In this document: piece by piece, positions 20,514 to 64,000 of the stretch
Layout of the letters: the number at the start of each line of letters is the position of its first letter
Position numbering within the stretch: position 1 is the first letter of the stretch
Assembly (NCBI RefSeq): GCF_041346945.1
Contig: NZ_CP166850.1
Location: forward strand, 10,152,501 to 10,216,500
Direction: 5' to 3'
Source: Amycolatopsis sp. cg9
Lineage (GTDB): Bacteria > Actinomycetota > Actinomycetes > Mycobacteriales > Pseudonocardiaceae
DNA length: 64,000 nt
Notes under the pieces: generated by a model
Told to the model about the DNA's origin: nothing
Database searches by the model: none
What the model saw: only the letters and a program-made list of their open reading frames with translations
Made by a program: the position numbers and the translations under genes

Positions 20514-20568
20514 CAAGGCGTCAAGACGCGATGCATCAAACATCAGATATGACGCCACATTTTCCCGG

Positions 20569-53458: not shown

Positions 53459-56400
53459 TCAGGACAGCCCGAGCTCGTTGTCGATCAGGTCGAAGATCTC
53501 GTCGTCGGTGGCGGTGTCGAGCCCGTCGCCGGCCTCCTCCTCCGCCTGCGTGGCGCGGCGCCGGGCCAGCAGCGTCTCCAGGCGCGCGGTGATCCGCCTG
53601 CTGTCGCCGGCGCCTTCGAGCACGCGCTCGAGCCGGTCCAGCTCGGCCAGGACCGCCGTGTCCGCGTCCGCGTCCGCCGCTTCGGGCGCGAGCCCGGCCA
53701 GCAGGTGCGCCGCCAGGTCGGCGGGCGACGGGTGGTCGAAGATCAGCGTGGCCGGCAGCCGCAGCCCGGTCTCGGCGGTGAGCCGGTTGCGCAGTTCCAC
53801 CGCGGTCAGCGAGTCGAAGCCGAGGTCCAGGAAGCCGCGGCTGCCGTCGACTTCGGCCGTCGAGCCGTGGCCCAGCACGGTGGCGACGTGCCCGCGCACG
53901 ACGTCGAGCAGGAACTCGCCGCGCTCGGCCGCGGGCACCGCACCGAGCCGCTGGGCGAACGGCGGACCGGCGGGATCGCCGTCCGACACCGCTTCGGCGG
54001 TCCGGCGGGCCGGGGCCCGCACCAGCGCCGCGAACAGCGGCGGCAAGCCGGCCTGCGCGCCGAGCGCGGCCGTGTCGAGCTGCAGCGGCAGCAGTACCGG
54101 CTCCGGCCGCGCGGCGGCGACGTCGAACAGGTCGAGGCCGCTTTCCGCGGTGAACGGGACGAACGCGGACCGCTCCAGCTTCGCGCGGTCGGCGTCGCCC
54201 AGCCCGCCGAGCATGCCGTCGGTGGCCCAGGGACCCCACGCCAGCGAACCGGCGGGCAGGCCCCGCGCCGAGCGGTACTGCGCGAGCGCGTCGAGGAACG
54301 CGTTGGCCGCGGCGTAGTTGCCCTGGCCCGGGCTGCCCAGCGTGGCCGCCGCCGAGGAGAACAGCACGAACGCCGCCAGGCCGAGGTCCCGCGTGAGCTC
54401 GTGCAGGTTCAGCGCGGCGTCCACCTTGGGCCGCAGCACCGCGTTCAGCCGCTCGGGGGTCAGCGACGCGACGACGCCGTCGTCGAGGACGCCGGCCGCG
54501 TGCACCACCCCGGTGAGCGGCCGCTCCGGCGGGATCGCGCCGAGCACCGCGGCCAGCTCGCGCCGGTCGGCGGCGTCGCCCGCGACGATCCGGACGTTCG
54601 CGCCCAGTTCCCGCAGGTCGGCGGCGAGTTCGGCGGCGCCGGGCGCGTCCGGCCCGCGCCGGCTCAGCAGCAGCAGGTCGCGGACGCCGTGCCCGGTGAC
54701 CAGCCGCCGGGCGAGCAGGCCACCCAGCGCGCCGGTGCCGCCGGTGATCAGCACCGTGCCGGGGCCGAAGCACGACGGCATGGTGAGTACGACCTTGCCG
54801 ACGTGCTTGGCCTGGCTGACGAACCGGAACGCCTCGGGCGCGCGCCGCACGTCCCAGGTCCGCACCGGCAGCGGGGTCAGCGCGCCGGCTTCGAACAGCG
54901 CGATGACTTCGGTGAACAGCTCGCGGATGCGGTCCGGCCCGGCTTCGACGAGGTCGAACGCCTGGTAGGCCACGCCCGGGTGGGCGGCGGCGACGTCGCC
55001 CGCGTCGCGGACGTCGGCCTTGCCCATCTCCAGGAACCGCCCGCCGCGCGGCATCAGCGCGAAGGAGGCGTCGACGAACTCCTGGGTCAGCGCGTTGAGG
55101 ACGACGTCGACGCCCCGGCCGCCGCTGGCCTCGCGGAACAGCTCCGCGAACCCGGTCGTGCGCGACGACGCCAGGTGCGCGTCGTCGAGCCCGGACGCGC
55201 GCAGGACGTCCCACTTGCCGGGGCTCGCGGTGGCGAAGACCTCGGCGCCGAGGTGGCGGGCCAGCTGGATGGCGGCCATGCCGACGCCGCCGGCGCCCGC
55301 GTGGATCAGCACGGACTCCCCCGCCCGCAGCCCGGCGAGGTCGACGAGCCCGTAGTACGCGGTCAGGAAGACGATGGGGACCGACGCCGCTTCGCTGAAC
55401 GACCAGCCCTCGGGCATCTTCGCCAGCATCCGCTGGTCCGCGACCGACCGCGGGCCGAACGAACCGGGGAAGAAACCCATCACCTTGTCGCCGGGCTTCA
55501 GGCCCCCGACGCCTTCGCCGCATTCGAGCACGACGCCGGCGCCTTCGATGCCCATGATCGGCTCGCCCGGGTACATGCCGAGACCGATGAGGACGTCGCG
55601 GAAGTTCATGCCGGCGGCGCGGATGGCCACCCGGACGTGACCCGGTTCGAGCGTCTCGGGCAGCGGGTTCGGGATCAGCGCGAGGTTTTCGAGCGTGCCG
55701 GGGCCGGTGGTGTCGAGCCGCCAGTTGCCTTCGGCGGGCACGCGCAGCAGGTCGCCGGAGCCGGCGCGCACCAGCCGCGCGGCCAGCGCCCGGCCGTCGC
55801 GCAGGGCGAGCTGCGGTTCCCCGGAGGCGACCGCGCCCAGCAACGCCGCCGAGCGCGGGTCTTCGTCGTCGAGGTCGACCAGCACGAGCCGGCCGGGGTT
55901 CTCGAACTGAGCCGACCGCAGCAGGCCCCACACGGGCGCGGCGGTGAGGTCGGGCACGCGGTCGCCGTCGACCGCGCCGACCGCGCCGCGGGTGACCAGC
56001 ACCAGCCGCGCGGTGCTGAACCGTTCGTCGGCCAGCCAGGCGCGGACCAGGTCCAGCGCGAAACCGGCCCGGTCCTTCGGCTGCGGCGAGTGCCGGATCG
56101 CGGAGAACACGAACTGCGGTTCCTCGCCGGTTTCCGCCGTGCTGCGGCCGAGGTCCGCGAGGTCCACATAGGACTCAACGGTGCCCGCCGAGCCGAGCCC
56201 GGCGACCAGGCCGAGCGGGTCCGGGCCGATGACGGCGTACCGGCCGCCGGCCGCTTCGGGCACCGGGATCGGCGTCCACTCGACGTGGAACAGGGCGTCG
56301 CCGCCGTCCGGGCCGCGCAGCTGCTCGGCCGAAACCGGGCGCAGCACCAGTGCGGCCACCGACGCGACCGGCGCCCCGGTGGCGTCGGCGACGTCGACCG

Positions 56401-58525
56401 CGACCGCGTCCCCGGCACCCGGGCGCAGCCGGACCCGCAGCGCGGCGGCGCCGGTGGCGTGCAGGGTGACCCCGGTCCACGCGAAGGGCAGCCGTGGCCC
56501 GGTTTCGCCGTCGCGGAGCCCGAGAGCGTGCAAGGCGGCGTCGAGCAGCGCCGGGTGCAGGCCGAACGCGCCCGCCTGCTGCGGCTCCGGCAGGGCGACC
56601 TCGGCGTAGATCTCTTCGCCGGCCCGCCAAGCCGCGCGCAGGCCGCGGAACGCCGGGCCGTAGCCGAAGCCGGACGCCGCGAGCGTGTCGTAGAAGCCGG
56701 TCACGTCAACGGGTTCCGCGCCGGCGGGCGGCCACTCGGCCAGCGCCGCGGGGTCCGCCGCGGCCGCCGGCGCCAGCACCCCGGCGGCGTGCGCGGTCCA
56801 CTCGTCCCGGCCCTCCGGGCGGGAGTGGATGGTCAGCTCGCGGCGGCCGTCGGCGTCGGGGCCGCCCACCGCGACCTGGATCGCGACGGCGTCCTGCTCG
56901 CGCAGCACGAGCGGGGCGGCGAGGGTCAGCTCTTCGAGCGCCGGGCAGCCGGCCTGGTCGCCCGCCCGCACCGCGAGCTCGACGAACGCGGTGCCGGGCA
57001 GCAGCACCGTGCCGAGGACGGCGTGATCGGCCAGCCACGGCTGCGCGGCCAGGGACAGCCGTCCGGTGAGGACGACGCCGTCGCCGCCGGCCAGCGGCAG
57101 GGTCGCCGCCAGCAGCGGGTGGGCTGCGTCGGTCAGCCCGGCCGCGCCCACGTCCCCCGCCGCCGTGGCGGAGACTTCCGGCCAGAAACGCCGGTGCTGG
57201 AAGGCGTACGTCGGCAGCGGGACGCGGCGGGCGCCGGCGACCGCGGCCGAGAGGTCGGCCGGAACGCCGCGGACCCACAGCCCGGCGAGCGCGGTGGCGT
57301 ACGTGCGTTCCTCCGGCCGGTCGCGGCGCAGCAGCGGCACCGCCACGACGTCTTCGCCGAGGCAGTCCGCGGCCATGGCGCTGAGCACGGCGTCCGGGCC
57401 CGCTTCGAGGAACGTCCGGACGCCCTGGCCGGCCAGGGTCGCGACGGCGTCGGCGAACCGCACCGACGCCCGGACCTGGCGCACCCAGTAGTCCGGAGTG
57501 GACAGTTCGGGACCGGCGAGCTCGCCGGTCACCGTGGACACCACGGTCCGCTCGGCCGGGTGGTAGGTCAGCCGGTTCGCGACCGCGGCGAAGTCGTCGA
57601 GCATCGCGTCCATCCGCGGGGAGTGGAACGCGTGGCTCACCTTGAGCCGCTTGGTCCGCACCCCGGCGGCCGCGAACCCGGCGGCCAGCTCCAGCACGAC
57701 GTCCTCGTCGCCGGAGACGACGACCGAGCCCGGCCCGTTGACGGCCGCGATGCCCGCCCGGCCGCCGGTCTTGGCCACCTCCGCGGCCACGGCGTCTTCG
57801 CCGGCCCGCAGCGAAACCATCGCCCCGCCGTCCGGCAGCGCGTCCATCAGGCGGCCGCGGGCGGCGACCAGCTCGGCGGCGTCGGCCAGCGACAGGACCC
57901 CGGCGACGTGCGCGGCGACCAGCTCGCCGATCGAATGGCCGGCGAGGTAGTCCGCGCGCACGCCCCAGCTTTCGGCGAGCCGGTGCAGCGCCAGCTCGAC
58001 GGCGAACAGCGCGGTCTGGGTGTAGGCGGTCCGGTCCAGCAGCGCGGCCTGTTCGGTGCCGGGCTCGGCGAAGACGAGGTCCCGGATCGAGTGCTCCAGG
58101 TGCGGGTCGAGGTGCGCGCAGGCCTCGTCGAAGGCGTCCGCGTAGCCGCTGAACCGGGCGTAGAGCTCCCGGCCCATGCCGGCGCGCTGCGCACCTTGCC
58201 CGGTGAACAGCACCGCGAGCGGACCGGTGGCCGCCTCCCCCGAGATCACCTCGGGCGCCGGCGTGCCCCCGGCGAGCGCGGCGAGCCCGGCTCGGAAGTC
58301 CGCGGCCGTGGTGCCGAGCACGACGGCCCGGTGGTCCAGCGCGGCGCGGCCGGTGGCCAGGGAGAACCCGATGTCGGCCGGCGTTCCGTCCACTTCGGAC
58401 AGCCGCGCGGCCTGTGCGCGCAGTGCGGCCACCGAACGACCGGAGACCGGCCACAGCACCAGCCCGGAGCGCCCCAATGTGGCGTTGGGTGCGTCTGACG
58501 CACCGAACGCCACATTGGGGCGCTC
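53459..58525 (-). CDS. Type I modular PKS, AT-DH-ER-KR-ACP of module b (downstream part of interrupted gene)
   Basis: In-frame continuation of the gene at 58246-64000 after a frame break. The frame is open to 58795, but PKS sequence begins only at [11 protein letters not shown] next to the palindrome edge. Domains: AT with GHSIG (Ser codon 57932-57934) and HAFH (57623-57634), malonyl; DH with catalytic His codon 57022-57024 ([11 protein letters not shown]) and [12 protein letters not shown] ([30 protein letters not shown]) about 55700-54780; KR with LDD near 54490, B-type; ACP ([12 protein letters not shown]) near 53808; C-terminal docking ending [16 protein letters not shown] fully reducing extension. 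If the break is real, translation of this part would need reinitiation; if it is a sequence error, the two parts are one protein. Confidence 0.93.
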
Positions 58526-61500
58526 GGGGCCTGCTCGATGATCGTGTGCGCGTTGGTCCCGGAGATGCCGAACGACGAGACCCCGGCCCGCCGCGGCCGG
58601 TCGGTGGTCCACTCGCGGGCTTCGGTGAGCAGCTCGACCGCTCCCGCCGACCAGTCCACGTGGGACGACGGCGTGTCGACGTGCAGCGACTTCGGCAGCA
58701 GCCCGTGCCGCATCGCCATGACCATCTTGATGATGCCCGCGGCGCCCGCGGCGGCCTGCGTGTGGCCGATGTTCGACTTGATCGAGCCGAGCCACAGCGG
58801 CGTTTCCCGGTCCTGGCCGTAGGTCGCCAGCACCGCCTGCGCCTCGATCGGATCACCGAGGGTCGTGCCGGTGCCGTGCGCCTCGACGACGTCCACATCG
58901 GACGGCGCCAGGCCCGCGTTCGCCAGTGCCGCGCGGATCACGCGTTGCTGCGACGGGCCGTTCGGCGCGGTCAGGCCGTTCGAAGCGCCGTCGGAGTTGA
59001 CCGCCGAGCCCCGGACGAGCGCCAGGACTTCGTGGCCGTTGCGGCGGGCGTCGGAAAGCCGTTCCAGCAGCAGCAACCCGGCGCCTTCGGCCCAGCCGGT
59101 GCCGTCCGCCGCCTCGGCGAACGGCTTGCACCGGCCGTCCGGCGCCAGCCCGCGCTGCCGGCTGAACTCGACGAACGCGCCCGGGGTCGACATCACCGTG
59201 ACACCACCGGCGACGGCCATCGTGGACTCGCCCTGCCGCAGCGACTGGCAGGCCAGGTGCAGCGCGACCAGCGACGACGAGCACGCGGTGTCGACCGCGA
59301 CCGACGGCCCTTCCAGGCCGAAGGTGTAGGAGACGCGCCCGGCGATGACGCTCGTGGTGTTGCCGGTCAGCAGGTGGCCCTCGACGCCGGACGCCGAGCC
59401 GAGCATGGTGACGTAGTCCTGGCCGTTGGTGCCGGCGAACACGCCGGTCTTGGTGCCGCGCAGCGAATGCGGGTCGATGCCCGCGCGCTCGAACAGCTCC
59501 CACGCCGTCTCGAGCAGGAGCCGCTGCTGCGGGTCCATGGCGAGGGCCTCGCGCGGCGAGATCCCGAAGAACGCGGCGTCGAACTGGCCGACGCCGTCGA
59601 GGAACCCGCCGTCGCGGGCGTAGCTGCGGCCGCTCTTGCCCGGGTCCGGGTCGTAGAGCGCGCCGAGGTCCCAGCCGCGGTCGTCGGGGAACCCGGAAAT
59701 GCCGTCCCCGCCGTCGCCGACCAGCCGCCAGAGGTCTTCGGGCGAGCGGACCCCGCCCGGGTAGCGGCAGCTCATCGCGACGATCGCGATCGGGTCGTCG
59801 GCGACCTCGGCCACGGTCGCGGGCGCGCCCGGTTCCGGTGCGCCGGCGCCGAAGATCTCGCCGAGCAGGCGGTCGGTCAGGTCCGCCGGGGTCGGGTGGT
59901 CGAACACCAGCGTCGAGGGCAGCGCGAGGCCGGTGTCGGCGGCCAGGCCGTTGCGCAGCTCGACCGCGGTGAGCGAGTCGAAGCCCAGGTCCTTGAAGGG
60001 CCGGACCGGCTCGATCGCCTCGGCGCCGTCGTGCCCGAGGACCGCCGCGGCGCGGGCGCGGACGACGTCGAGGAGCACCCGGCGCCGTTCGGACGTGGGC
60101 AGCCCGGCGAGCCGGGTGGCCAGCTCGGCGGTGCCGCGGGCCGTGGCTCCGCCTTCGGTCACGGCGAACTCGGGCAGCTCGGCCATCAGCGGCCGCGGGC
60201 GGGCGGCCGCGTACGACGGCGCGAAGCGGGCCCAGTCGACGTCGGCGACGACGACGGTGGTCTCGTCCAGTTCGACGGCCTGCAGGAGCGCGCGCAGCCC
60301 CAGGTCCGGGTCCATCGGCCGGAGCCCGCGCCGGCGGAGCAGCTCGTCGCCCTCTTCGGACGCGCCCATGCCGGCACCCGCCCACGGGCCCCAGGCGATC
60401 GCCGTCCCGGCGAGCCCCGCGGCGCGGCGGCGTTCGGCGAGCGCGTCGAGGTGCGCGTTGGCCGCCGCGTACGCACCCTGGTGGCCGCTGCCCCAGACGC
60501 CGGCGATGGACGAGAACAGCACGAAGGCGTCGACGTCGGCGCCGAGCAGCTCGTCGAGGTGGACGGCGCCGTCGACCTTGGCGCGGACGACCTCCGCGAA
60601 GTCCGTTGTGGACGATTCGGCGATCGGCGTGAACCGGCCGTAGCCCGCGGCGTGGAAGACCGCGTTCACCGACCGTCCTTCGAGGACGCCGGCCAGCGCG
60701 GCGCGGTCGGCGACGTCGCAGGCGATGATCTCCGCCTCCGCGCCGAGGTCGCGCAGCTGCGTCGCGAGTCCGGCCGCGCCGGGTGCGTCCGGTCCGCGGC
60801 GGCTGAGCAGGAGGAGGTGCCGGGCGCCCTGCGCGGCGAGCTTCCGCGCGAGCGCGCTGCCCAGTGCCCCGGTGCCGCCGGTGATCAGGGTGGTTCCCGA
60901 CGGGGTCCAGCCGGCGGATTCGGTGCCGGCCGGGGCGCGGACGAGCCGGGGTACGAACGCGCCGGACGCCCGCAGCGCGACCTGGTCCTCGGTCGTGCCC
61001 GCGGCGAGGAGACCCGCGAGCCGGGCGTGGCCGCGGTCGTCGAGGGTGGCCGGCAGGTCCAGGAGGCCGACGTCGCGGCCGGTGAGTTCCAGCGCGGCGA
61101 CCCGGCCGAGGCCCCAGACCTGCGCCAGCGCGGGGTCGGGTGCGGCGTCGGAACGCGCGGTGCGCACGGCTTCGGTGGTGACGCACCAGAGCGGGCCGGG
61201 CAGGTCGGCCTGGAACACCGAGAGGGCTTCGTCGAGGTTCGCGGGGAAGGCGAGGACTCCGGCGGCGCCGGCCACTTCAGGCAGCCGTTCGAAGGGCAGG
61301 GTGACGACGTCCGCGCCCCGCTCGGCGAGGCCCTCGGCGATCCCGGCGTGCTCCGTCCCGAGGATCACCCAGGTGCCGGACAGCCGTCCGGCGGCGATCG
61401 GGTGCGGCCGCCAGGTGACGCGGTAGCGCCACGATTCGAGGGTGCTCGCCTCGCGGTGGCGGGTGCGCCAGGCCTGGAGCGCGGGCTGGATGGCGTCGGC

Positions 61501-64000
61501 GAGGTCTTCGTCGACGGCGAGGTCCCGGGCCAGGTCCCCGTTTTCGACGGCGGCCCAGAACTCGGCGTCGGCGTCGGTGGCGGCCGGTGGGCGAGCGGGT
61601 TCGAGCCAGTAGCGCTGGTGCTCGAAGGGGTACGTCGGCAGCGCGACGGCCCGGCCCGCGGAGCCCGCGTAGAGGCTCTCCCAGTCCAGGTCGACGCCGT
61701 TGACGTGCAGCCGGGCCAGCGCGGTGAACAGGGTCCGTTCCTCGTCGCGGTCCCGACGCAGCGCGGGGATCGCGGTGCCCGGAACCATCCCGCTGAGCAC
61801 GCCGTCGGGCCCCAGCTCCAGGAACACGCCCACCCCGGCGGCTTCCAGCGTCGAGATGCCGTCGGCGAACCGGACCGCCTCCCGCACGTGCCGGACCCAG
61901 TAGTCCGCCGTGAACGGCTCCGCGAGAGCACCGCTCACATTCGAGATCACCGGTATCGTCGCAGAGCGGTGCTCCAGGGACTCGGCGACCGAGCGGAACT
62001 CCTCCAGCATCGGATCCATCAACGGCGAATGGAACGCGTGGCTCACCTTGAGGCGCTTGGTCTTGGGGAACTGCGCGGCGATCGCCAGCACCTCGGCCTC
62101 ATCGCCGGAGATGACGACCGACTCCGGGCCGTTGACTGCAGCGATGGAGACGCCGTCGGTGAGGGTGATGGCCGACTCGGGGGCGGCGATGGAGACCATC
62201 GCCCCGCCGGCCGGGAGGGCCTGCATGAGGGAAGCGCGCGCAGCGACCAGGCGGCAGGCGTCCTCGAGAGACAGAACCCCGGCGACGTGGGCCGCCGAGA
62301 TTTCGCCGATCGAGTGCCCCGCCACGAAGTCCGGGCGGACACCGAACGACTCCACCAGCCGGAACAACGCCACCTCGATCGCGAAGAGGGCGGGCTGGGT
62401 GAACTCGGTGCGGTCCAGGCGCTCGGCGTCGTCGAAGGCTTCGCGCACTTCGGGCGTGAAGTGGGCGAGGACGGCGTCGAACGCTTCGGCGTAGACGGGG
62501 AAGCGGGCGTGAAGAGCGCGGCCCATACCGACCCGCTGCGCGCCTTGGCCGGTGAACAGCACCGCCAGCAGGGCGTCCCGGTCGGCCGTGCCGGTGACCA
62601 CGGCGGCGTCGGTGCCACCGTCGGCGAGGACGCCGAGCGCGCGGTCGACGTCGTCGCCGGACGCGACGAGCACCGCGCGGTGGTCGTGCGTGCCGCGCGT
62701 GAAAGCCAGGGAGTACGCGAGATCCCGCGGTGCCGCGTCGAGCCCCCGGAGCCGGGAAGCCTGCGCCCGCAACGCCGTCGCACTCCGGGCCGACAGCGGG
62801 ACGAGCGGCGGCGTCGCGTCCGGGCCCGCCTGCGGGAGCACCACAGCGTCGGCCTGTTCCAGGACGACGTGCGCGTTGGTCCCGCTCACCCCGAACGCCG
62901 AGACCGCGGCCCGGCGCGGCCCCTCGGAAGCCCAGTCGCGCTGCTCGGTGAGCAGCTCGACCGACCCGGCCGTCCAGTCCACTTGGGACGACGGCGTGTC
63001 GACGTGCAGCGTCCGCGGCAGGACGCCGTGCCGCATGGCGAGGACCATCTTGATCACGCCCGCCACACCCGACGCCGACTGGGTGTGGCCGATGTTCGAC
63101 TTCAGCGACCCCAGCCACAGCGGCCGGTCCCGGTCGCGGCCGTAGGTCGCCAGCAGGGCCTGCGCCTCGATCGGGTCGCCGAGCCGGGTCCCCGTGCCGT
63201 GCGCCTCGACCGCGTCGACGTCCGAAGTGGACAGACCGGCGTTCGCCAGCGCGGCCCGGATCACCCGCTGCTGCGAAGGACCGTTCGGAGCGCTCAAGCC
63301 GTTGGACGCGCCGTCCTGGTTGACCGCCGAACCGCGCACCACGGCGAGGACCGGGTGACCGTTGCGCCGGGCGTCCGACAGCCGCTCCAGCAGGACCAGG
63401 CCGACGCCTTCGCCCCAGCCGGTCCCGTCCGCCGCGTCCGCGAAGGACTTGCAGCGGCCGTCCTCGGCGAGCCCGCGCTGCCGGCTGAACTCGACGAACG
63501 CCGCCGGGTGCGCCATCACCGTGACCCCGCCGGCCAGCGCCATCGAGCACTCGCCCTGCCGCAGCGCCTGCACGGCCAGGTGCAGCGCCACCAGCGACGA
63601 CGAGCACGCCGTGTCGACGGTGACCGCCGGTCCCTCCAGGCCGAACGTGTAGGACAGGCGGCCCGACACGACCGCCGGGGCGCTGCCGGTCAGCAGGTAG
63701 CCCTCGGAGCCGCCGGACTCGTCGCGCGCGCCGACGCCGTAGCCGGACGAAGTCGCGCCGACGAACACGCCGGTTCCGCTGCCCCGCAACGAATCCGGGT
63801 CGATGCCCGCCCGCTCGAACACCTCCCACGACGTCTCGAGCAGGACGCGCTGCTGCGGGTCCATGGCGAGGGCCTCGCGCGGCGAGATGCCGAAGAACCC
63901 GGCGTCGAACTCCGCGGCCGTGGTCATGAACCCGCCCTCGCGGGTGTAGCTGGTGCCGAGCTTCGCCGGGTCCGGGTCGTACAGCGCGGTCAGGTCCCAG
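58246..64000 (-). CDS. Type I modular PKS, module a and KS of module b; 5' end outside window, 3' end frameshifted
   Basis: The N-terminus is beyond 64000; reading starts inside a KS ([19 protein letters not shown]). Module a: KS with active Cys codon 63604-63606; AT with GHSIG (Ser codon 62311-62313) and HAFH (62029-62040), malonyl; KR about 60905-60330 without LDD, Trp codon 60492-60494 and Tyr 60468-60470 with Gln at Tyr-3, A1 pattern; no DH; ACP Ser codon 59974-59976. Module b KS from about 59800, Cys codon 59281-59283. After [10 protein letters not shown] the frame runs into a 59-bp palindrome and then nonsense, stopping at 58246; the true continuation is in the frame ending at 53459. 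The presence of an ordinary extension KS at the edge means more modules lie upstream. Confidence 0.95.
58467..58525. repeat. 59-bp near-perfect palindrome that breaks the PKS frame
   Basis: Arms 58467-58495 and 58497-58525 are 29 bases each with one mismatch and a single central base. On the coding strand it follows GAG CAG GCC CC and precedes C GGG CTG GTG. Deleting exactly the 59 bp yields [13 protein letters not shown], a normal KS-AT linker in one frame; 59 is not a multiple of 3, so its presence shifts the frame. Confidence 0.9.
61922..61970 (-). repeat. Malonyl-AT homogenised block, copy in module a
   Basis: Exact 49-base copy. Unlike the copies in modules e, f, g and i, the neighbouring 57-base block is not conserved here, so the exchanged tract is shorter. 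Confidence 0.85.

Follow-up and report, generated by a model that had tools for sequence, protein, structure and literature searches.

A REP-like palindromic element of Amycolatopsis that probably also serves as a replaceable linker in polyketide synthases

Results and discussion

We found a family of palindromic repeats in Amycolatopsis whose copies lie mostly behind the ends of genes, share a reading frame in nearly all of the synthase linkers that contain them, and are present in some genomes but absent from others at orthologous linkers. Comparison of these copies indicates that the element is REP-like and that it also serves as a replaceable interdomain linker that is probably translated. 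One copy occurs in the window, by which we mean the whole 64,000-nucleotide stretch of the Amycolatopsis sp. cg9 genome that was analysed, within a modular polyketide synthase gene that is split between its ketosynthase (KS) and acyltransferase (AT) domains. It is very probable that this hairpin is a copy of the family that is read in frame as a KS-AT linker, and that the frame is broken by an adjacent run of C nucleotides that is one base short.

In the explanation that we propose, the hairpin belongs to a REP-like family of a subset of Amycolatopsis, in which units 30 bp apart carry either AATGTGGCGTT or AACGCCACATT and are joined by a self-complementary core. Most copies reside just behind the 3′ ends of genes, and many of them have convergent genes on either side. 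The modular polyketide synthases that contain the element have it instead of the short segment of variable sequence that otherwise separates the ketosynthase from the KS-AT linker domain, and its one fixed frame there encodes a linker rich in Ala, Asn and Gly. Because the unit comprises ten codons and is part of a palindrome, the gain, loss or inversion of units would preserve both the frame and the kind of peptide, which is presumably tolerated as a loop.

The copy in the split synthase gene

The element in the window is a two-unit palindrome of 29+1+29 nucleotides (58467..58525, no strand assigned) whose arms have one mismatched pair; our measurement agrees in every respect with that of a preliminary description of this DNA. 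Its left unit word, AATGTGGCGTT (58476..58486, plus strand), and its right unit word, AACGCCACATT (58506..58516, plus strand), are separated by the 30 bp that are usual in the family. The ends of the element, RAGCRCCCC and GGGGYGCTY, are the same in most other copies in the genome. In a repeat search, the arms lengthen to 34 nucleotides at 94% complementarity (58462-58495 and 58497-58530). RNA corresponding to 58445-58545 has a predicted folding energy of -74.2 kcal/mol (z = -9.8), compared to a mean of -42.0 for shuffled sequences, none of which (0/200) was as good. A known RNA family was rejected as an identity for the hairpin: Rfam 15 lists 17 matches with E<=1 in 58200-58800, all of them below the gathering score. 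Elsewhere in the window, a lone, partnerless unit word with one mismatch lies between two genes (20551-20561; G000:C1:10173051), and is either a remnant or a chance occurrence.

The affected module has the domain order KS-AT-DH-ER-KR-ACP on the minus strand, and the element is located between its KS and AT. The KS domain (58678..59796, minus strand; Pfam PF00109/PF02801) corresponds to residues 1402-1774 of an open reading frame (ORF) of 3477 amino acids in all (58246..63999, minus strand), which runs past the end of the window and, at its other end, passes through the element before reaching a stop at 58246. The AT domain (57281..58210, minus strand; Pfam PF00698) is in another frame, and corresponds to residues 196-505 of an ORF that contains the AT, DH, ER, KR and ACP domains and ends at 53459 (53459..58795, minus strand). 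These two ORFs bear out the preliminary statements that KS and AT lie in different frames on either side of the palindrome, that the difference in frame is what 59 bases would cancel, and that the gene as given is unable to make a continuous module. Since the gene ends at 53459 and the following gene has its docking domain from about 53417 onward, no second frameshift is needed there; the overlapping ORFs that could have indicated a second, downstream frameshift were resolved as two genes.

The change of frame occurs at a run of nucleotides that are C on the gene strand (58526..58529, minus strand) and that border the element on its upstream side. This run has one C fewer than in the orthologue of genome G050, which is 94% identical and in frame. 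The gene in the window thus loses its frame through one missing base in the C-run beside the element, whether by mutation or by sequencing error. Among the cluster's 8 giant genes in the window's genome, this one alone is split. In a second cluster, the 8 giant genes are near those of genome G004 in length. Both statements rest on the stop-to-stop length of ORFs of at least 1300 codons. Among the 120 hits listed of 1904 in a protein search, 8 are 91-98% identical to the KS segment; these proteins have lengths of 4972-5088 amino acids, and one of the 8 has the element. Some of these 8 come from genomes already compared, so they are not all independent.

Copies and placement of the family

In the window's genome, which comprises 10.6 Mb in 2 contigs, the element is matched 145 times when both strands are counted, with 40 of 152 candidates scored. 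The exact two-sided core pattern occurs in 82 places, and its reversed control in none. These numbers imply that the palindrome does not arise by chance. Two types of core are present, with 54 and 120 matches. We gathered 109 elements, which is a lower bound since it includes 100 of the 120 matches of one core, and 108 of these have at least two unit words; the one with a lone word was not counted further. As judged by length, three units are spanned by 86 of the 109 elements and two units by 15. The family's unit is 30 bp, or ten codons, successive unit words usually being 30 bp apart, and RAGCRCCCC adjoins the first word in most copies. The preliminary description had proposed searching the genome for copies of the 59-mer with shared boundaries, and such copies are indeed numerous, with the common ends RAGCRCCCC.

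In the window's genome, 92 of the 108 copies are intergenic, and in 75 of these 92 the 3′ end of a gene is at most 35 bp from the outer word. Convergent gene pairs flank 51/92 intergenic copies versus 10/186 control pairs (p=1.4e-20), where the controls are other pairs from the same regions whose genes are 60 bp or more apart. All of these placement counts use gene calls made by our own codon-score script. A constant target duplication was not seen by eye in the flanks of the 108 copies, and at linkers the old sequence is replaced such that no exact empty site is found. A parent transposon was not identified in this analysis.

The unit pattern is found in 27 of 80 genomes of the genus. At the level of the order, 4 of 397 genomes, including the window's own, have the pattern; three belong to the genus and one to another genus of the family. 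With a longer pattern applied to the class, the window's own genome was the one positive among 394. The genome from the other genus (G323) has five matches to the unit pattern. Of the 397 genomes searched in the order, it is the only one outside of the genus to have any, and its matches possibly arose by horizontal transfer. Genome G088 has the most unit-pattern matches of the 80 genus genomes (196 + 175), yet has no match to the linker form at E <= 1e-15. Abundance of the units and their use in synthases are therefore not tied to one another.

In-frame reading within genes

Eight stretches, drawn from six genomes of the one genus, provided the 153 KS-AT linkers that we read. Linkers were located by a motif at the KS end, so KS domains that do not have this motif were missed. 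Among these linkers, 31 contain the element, and in 30 of the 31 a single frame, the same in all, runs straight through; the window's copy is the exception. However, these in-frame copies share descent and might have been copied between modules, so they do not amount to 30 independent tests. They contain 2 to 5 units, a count that rests on exact words and thus underestimates diverged units. When the 80 genus genomes were searched at the protein level, 6 of them yielded 43 matches in all. Stop-free frames of 1767-8152 codons contain 41 of these matches, whose surrounding domains were not each checked, and the remaining two have a stop, with frames of 569 and 210.

Of the 108 copies in the window's genome, 16 are inside genes, and two polyketide synthase clusters account for 12 of them, all in KS-AT linkers. 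Of the remaining four, three share the frame of the linkers: one is in the AT-ACP linker of another synthase, one is in a non-ribosomal peptide synthetase (NRPS) between a methyltransferase domain and an AMP-binding C-terminal domain, and one is where a caspase-domain protein is rich in Pro and Ala. The fourth (G000:C1:4527587), near the C terminus of an ORF of 435 amino acids, is read in a different frame, and may lengthen the protein beyond a former end. Every one of the 108 copies is open in three or more of the six frames, so stops alone do not account for the common frame. In all likelihood, judging from these frames, the peptide encoded by the element is made.

Orthologous linkers in related genomes

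The DNA beside the window's element has orthologues at 91-94% identity in five genomes. In G050, the orthologous linker has three units, and in G004 it has five units and an extra segment; both are in frame. The orthologous linkers of G043, G069 and G082 are ordinary and element-free, with 13-14 residues between EQA and LVPWP. Database records that occur at the orthologous site are named Amycolatopsis sp. A133, Amycolatopsis sp. CA-128772 and A. eburnea GLM-1. Linkers that are filled by the element are missing part of the ordinary linker. The extra proline codon is absent from the G004 orthologue, which leaves some doubt about how long the sequence beside the element was ancestrally.

When the G050 orthologue is aligned to the solved structures 11sz_A and 7s6b_A, the element falls into a gapped, variable stretch between the end of KS and the linker domain. 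In such structures, this stretch is generally a surface loop, which may be why the element is tolerated there.

Origin of the frame break

The preliminary description held that the palindrome was inserted into the gene, thereby knocking out the synthase, and that its exact excision would rejoin KS and AT. A recent insertion of a 59-bp hairpin would account for the difference in frame, which is of the size that 59 bases cancel, and the element does belong to a repeated, probably mobile family. However, G050 and G004 both have the orthologous linker filled in frame, and the same element is in frame in all but one of the element-bearing linkers that were read; the preliminary description had itself named in-frame orthologues with the same hairpin as evidence against its proposal. 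Moreover, in element-free orthologues the flanks are not simply joined, but are separated by an ordinary linker of the length given above rather than by the two residues that excision would leave. Exact excision as a history of this site is contradicted by these orthologues, and we consider a gene-breaking insertion to be very improbable. Even less credible is that the ribosome shifts frame at the hairpin or bypasses it, such that the gene would be functional as it is. Although a strong hairpin is situated exactly at the change of frame, the 30 other element-bearing linkers can be read straight through in one frame and have no need of such a mechanism, and bypass of 59 bases would give a linker shorter than those seen in orthologues. 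We therefore rejected programmed frameshifting and bypass.

The explanation that fits is one that the preliminary description had offered as an alternative, namely that the hairpin is an in-frame linker insert and that one C was lost from the adjacent run, which is one base shorter than in G050. The shortfall could be an error of sequencing or assembly, with the gene intact in the organism, and this is moderately probable: the C-run is at the foot of a 34-nucleotide stem in RNA with a folding energy of -74 kcal/mol, and the gene is the only split one among the 16 giant synthase genes of the two clusters, as assessed by length. On the other hand, this same low rate of breaks suggests that the assembly is generally good. 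A real mutation by slippage beside the hairpin, which would inactivate the module in this strain, is a substantial possibility, if a less probable one. A hairpin next to a run of one base is a context in which slippage would be expected, and a silent cluster would presumably tolerate the loss, but the cluster's other seven giant genes are whole by length and so give no sign of general decay. Overall, we lean slightly toward an assembly error. In either case, the site is a warning that runs of a base flanked by hairpins can make synthase genes appear broken.

Relationship to known palindromic repeats

Palindromic elements that are in frame within protein-coding genes, typically in non-structured segments, are described for Rickettsia (RPEs), Wolbachia and Methanocaldococcus in the portions of the literature consulted [PMC2996958, PMC10969869]. 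The Amycolatopsis element resembles RPEs in that repeated palindromes are in frame in genes for apparently functional proteins (30/31 linkers and 3/4 other in-gene copies). This likeness is one of description and mode of working. The same portions state that RPEs are about 150 bp and occur in unrelated genes [PMC2996958, PMC10969869], whereas the Amycolatopsis element is an array of 30-bp units that is mainly behind gene ends and that, within genes, is concentrated at one joint of polyketide synthases. With it, the range of in-frame palindromes, which covers intracellular bacteria and an archaeon, comes to include a genus of antibiotic producers. PARCEL repeats, as far as the consulted part of their description goes, are palindromic, amphipathic coding units in tandem that form long tracts in Mollicutes and other microbes [PMC2996958]. 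The present element likewise consists of palindromic units that code for protein in tandem but, unlike the long PARCEL tracts, mostly has two or three units that replace a linker.

REP and BIME sequences are described, in the part of the source seen, as high-copy, paired inverted units downstream of genes or between convergent genes, with some copies inside genes, perhaps as linkers or loops [PMC3733652]. Our element is like REPs in this general sense, as it has many copies that are mostly extragenic and downstream of genes. It is unlike the GTAG/CGTC REP super-families, in that neither GTAG nor CGTC is at the ends of the element, whose consensus over both ends of the 92 intergenic copies is RAGCRCCCC; CGTC is present in the central core instead. 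Its near-perfect stem of 29 bp also differs from the 5-13 bp of the REPs tabulated in the part of the source consulted [PMC3733652]. A REP driven by a RAYT was rejected because the Y1 transposase domain (PF01797) has no matches in the window's genome, while the control was positive in 5 of 14 genomes. Given that CGTC REPs are said, in the same part of that source, to have no dedicated transposase [PMC3733652], the missing Y1 domain counts against the GTAG type only. The element also resembles MITEs in being short, scattered and inverted-repeat, with no gene of its own. The preliminary term of a REP/MITE-like hairpin remains apt as regards a REP-like repeat with many copies and common ends, but not as regards a 59-base insertion that breaks genes. 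We found no report of this element among the top matches in the open-licence PMC literature. New here are the host, the frame-neutral unit and the turnover by presence and absence at one synthase joint.

Turnover of elements among linkers

In the first cluster (compared in the window's own genome, G004, G043, G050 and G082), 5 of 22 linkers are filled by the element in one or more genomes, and every one of the five is empty in at least one other, with one G050 linker left out of the count. In the second cluster, 9 of 16 linkers are filled in the window's own genome, and 6 in G004, all of which are among those 9. The mean identity of elements is 0.931 between orthologous linkers (19 pairs), 0.935 between different linkers of one genome (105 pairs) and 0.927 for the rest (341 pairs). 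The two filled linkers of G043 share a variant, APKAALG..APKATLG, that is absent from the other filled linkers read, although G004 has the related ATKAALG. These comparisons suggest that elements are frequently replaced or copied among linkers.

The sequences flanking the linkers were also compared. In the 12 nucleotides before the linker, identity is 0.846 in 13 filled/empty pairs versus 0.950 in 15 empty/empty pairs (p=0.02). In the first 50 nucleotides after the linker, it is 0.874 versus 0.907 (p=0.04), two of the empty pairs being wrongly anchored, and in the 50 nucleotides before the linker it is 0.932 versus 0.951 (p=0.09). The rank tests used rounded values, and pairs share members and so are not independent, which makes this a weak test. 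Two of 15 filled/empty pairs, both with the window's copy, were dropped for want of a downstream anchor. The wrong anchors affect the empty pairs own1_10215369 and own2_422585, the latter being also misaligned further upstream, as well as some filled linkers in the list of lengths. Anchors were sought in the KS frame only, so length differences are multiples of 3 by construction and are not evidence.

It is an even question whether the element spread by gene conversion from linker to linker between modules, rather than by direct insertion from elsewhere. Conversion is consistent with identity that is no higher between orthologous than between different linkers, with the variant common to the two filled linkers of G043, and with the lower similarity of filled/empty pairs in the 12 nucleotides before and the 50 nucleotides after the linker. 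However, the identity result also fits fresh insertions from a homogeneous family, and the pairs are not independent. Moreover, the 50 nucleotides before the linker differ little, and there was thus no sign around filled linkers of a long conversion tract coming from another module.

One could speculate, with considerable doubt, that the element is a mobile, orientation-blind and frame-neutral coding cassette, i.e., a gene-end repeat turned into a swappable megasynthase linker that actively comes, goes and changes in size at the KS-AT joint. In this view, the near-identical stretches of 60-90 bp that it places at one and the same joint in many modules might be a homology handle for domain exchange between modules. 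Related species differ in the presence and the number of units at the same linker, and thus provide a natural series of linker replacements at the ketosynthase/acyltransferase joint. With this series, one could test to what extent a modular synthase withstands altered linkers, and whether domain exchange is seeded by repeats.

Two of the arrays in G004 contain a nested segment of about 66 bp (between unit words at G004:C1 4018853 and 4018937, and near 3434800-3434860), which is in opposite orientations in the two arrays and in frame in both. This segment may be a second coding element.
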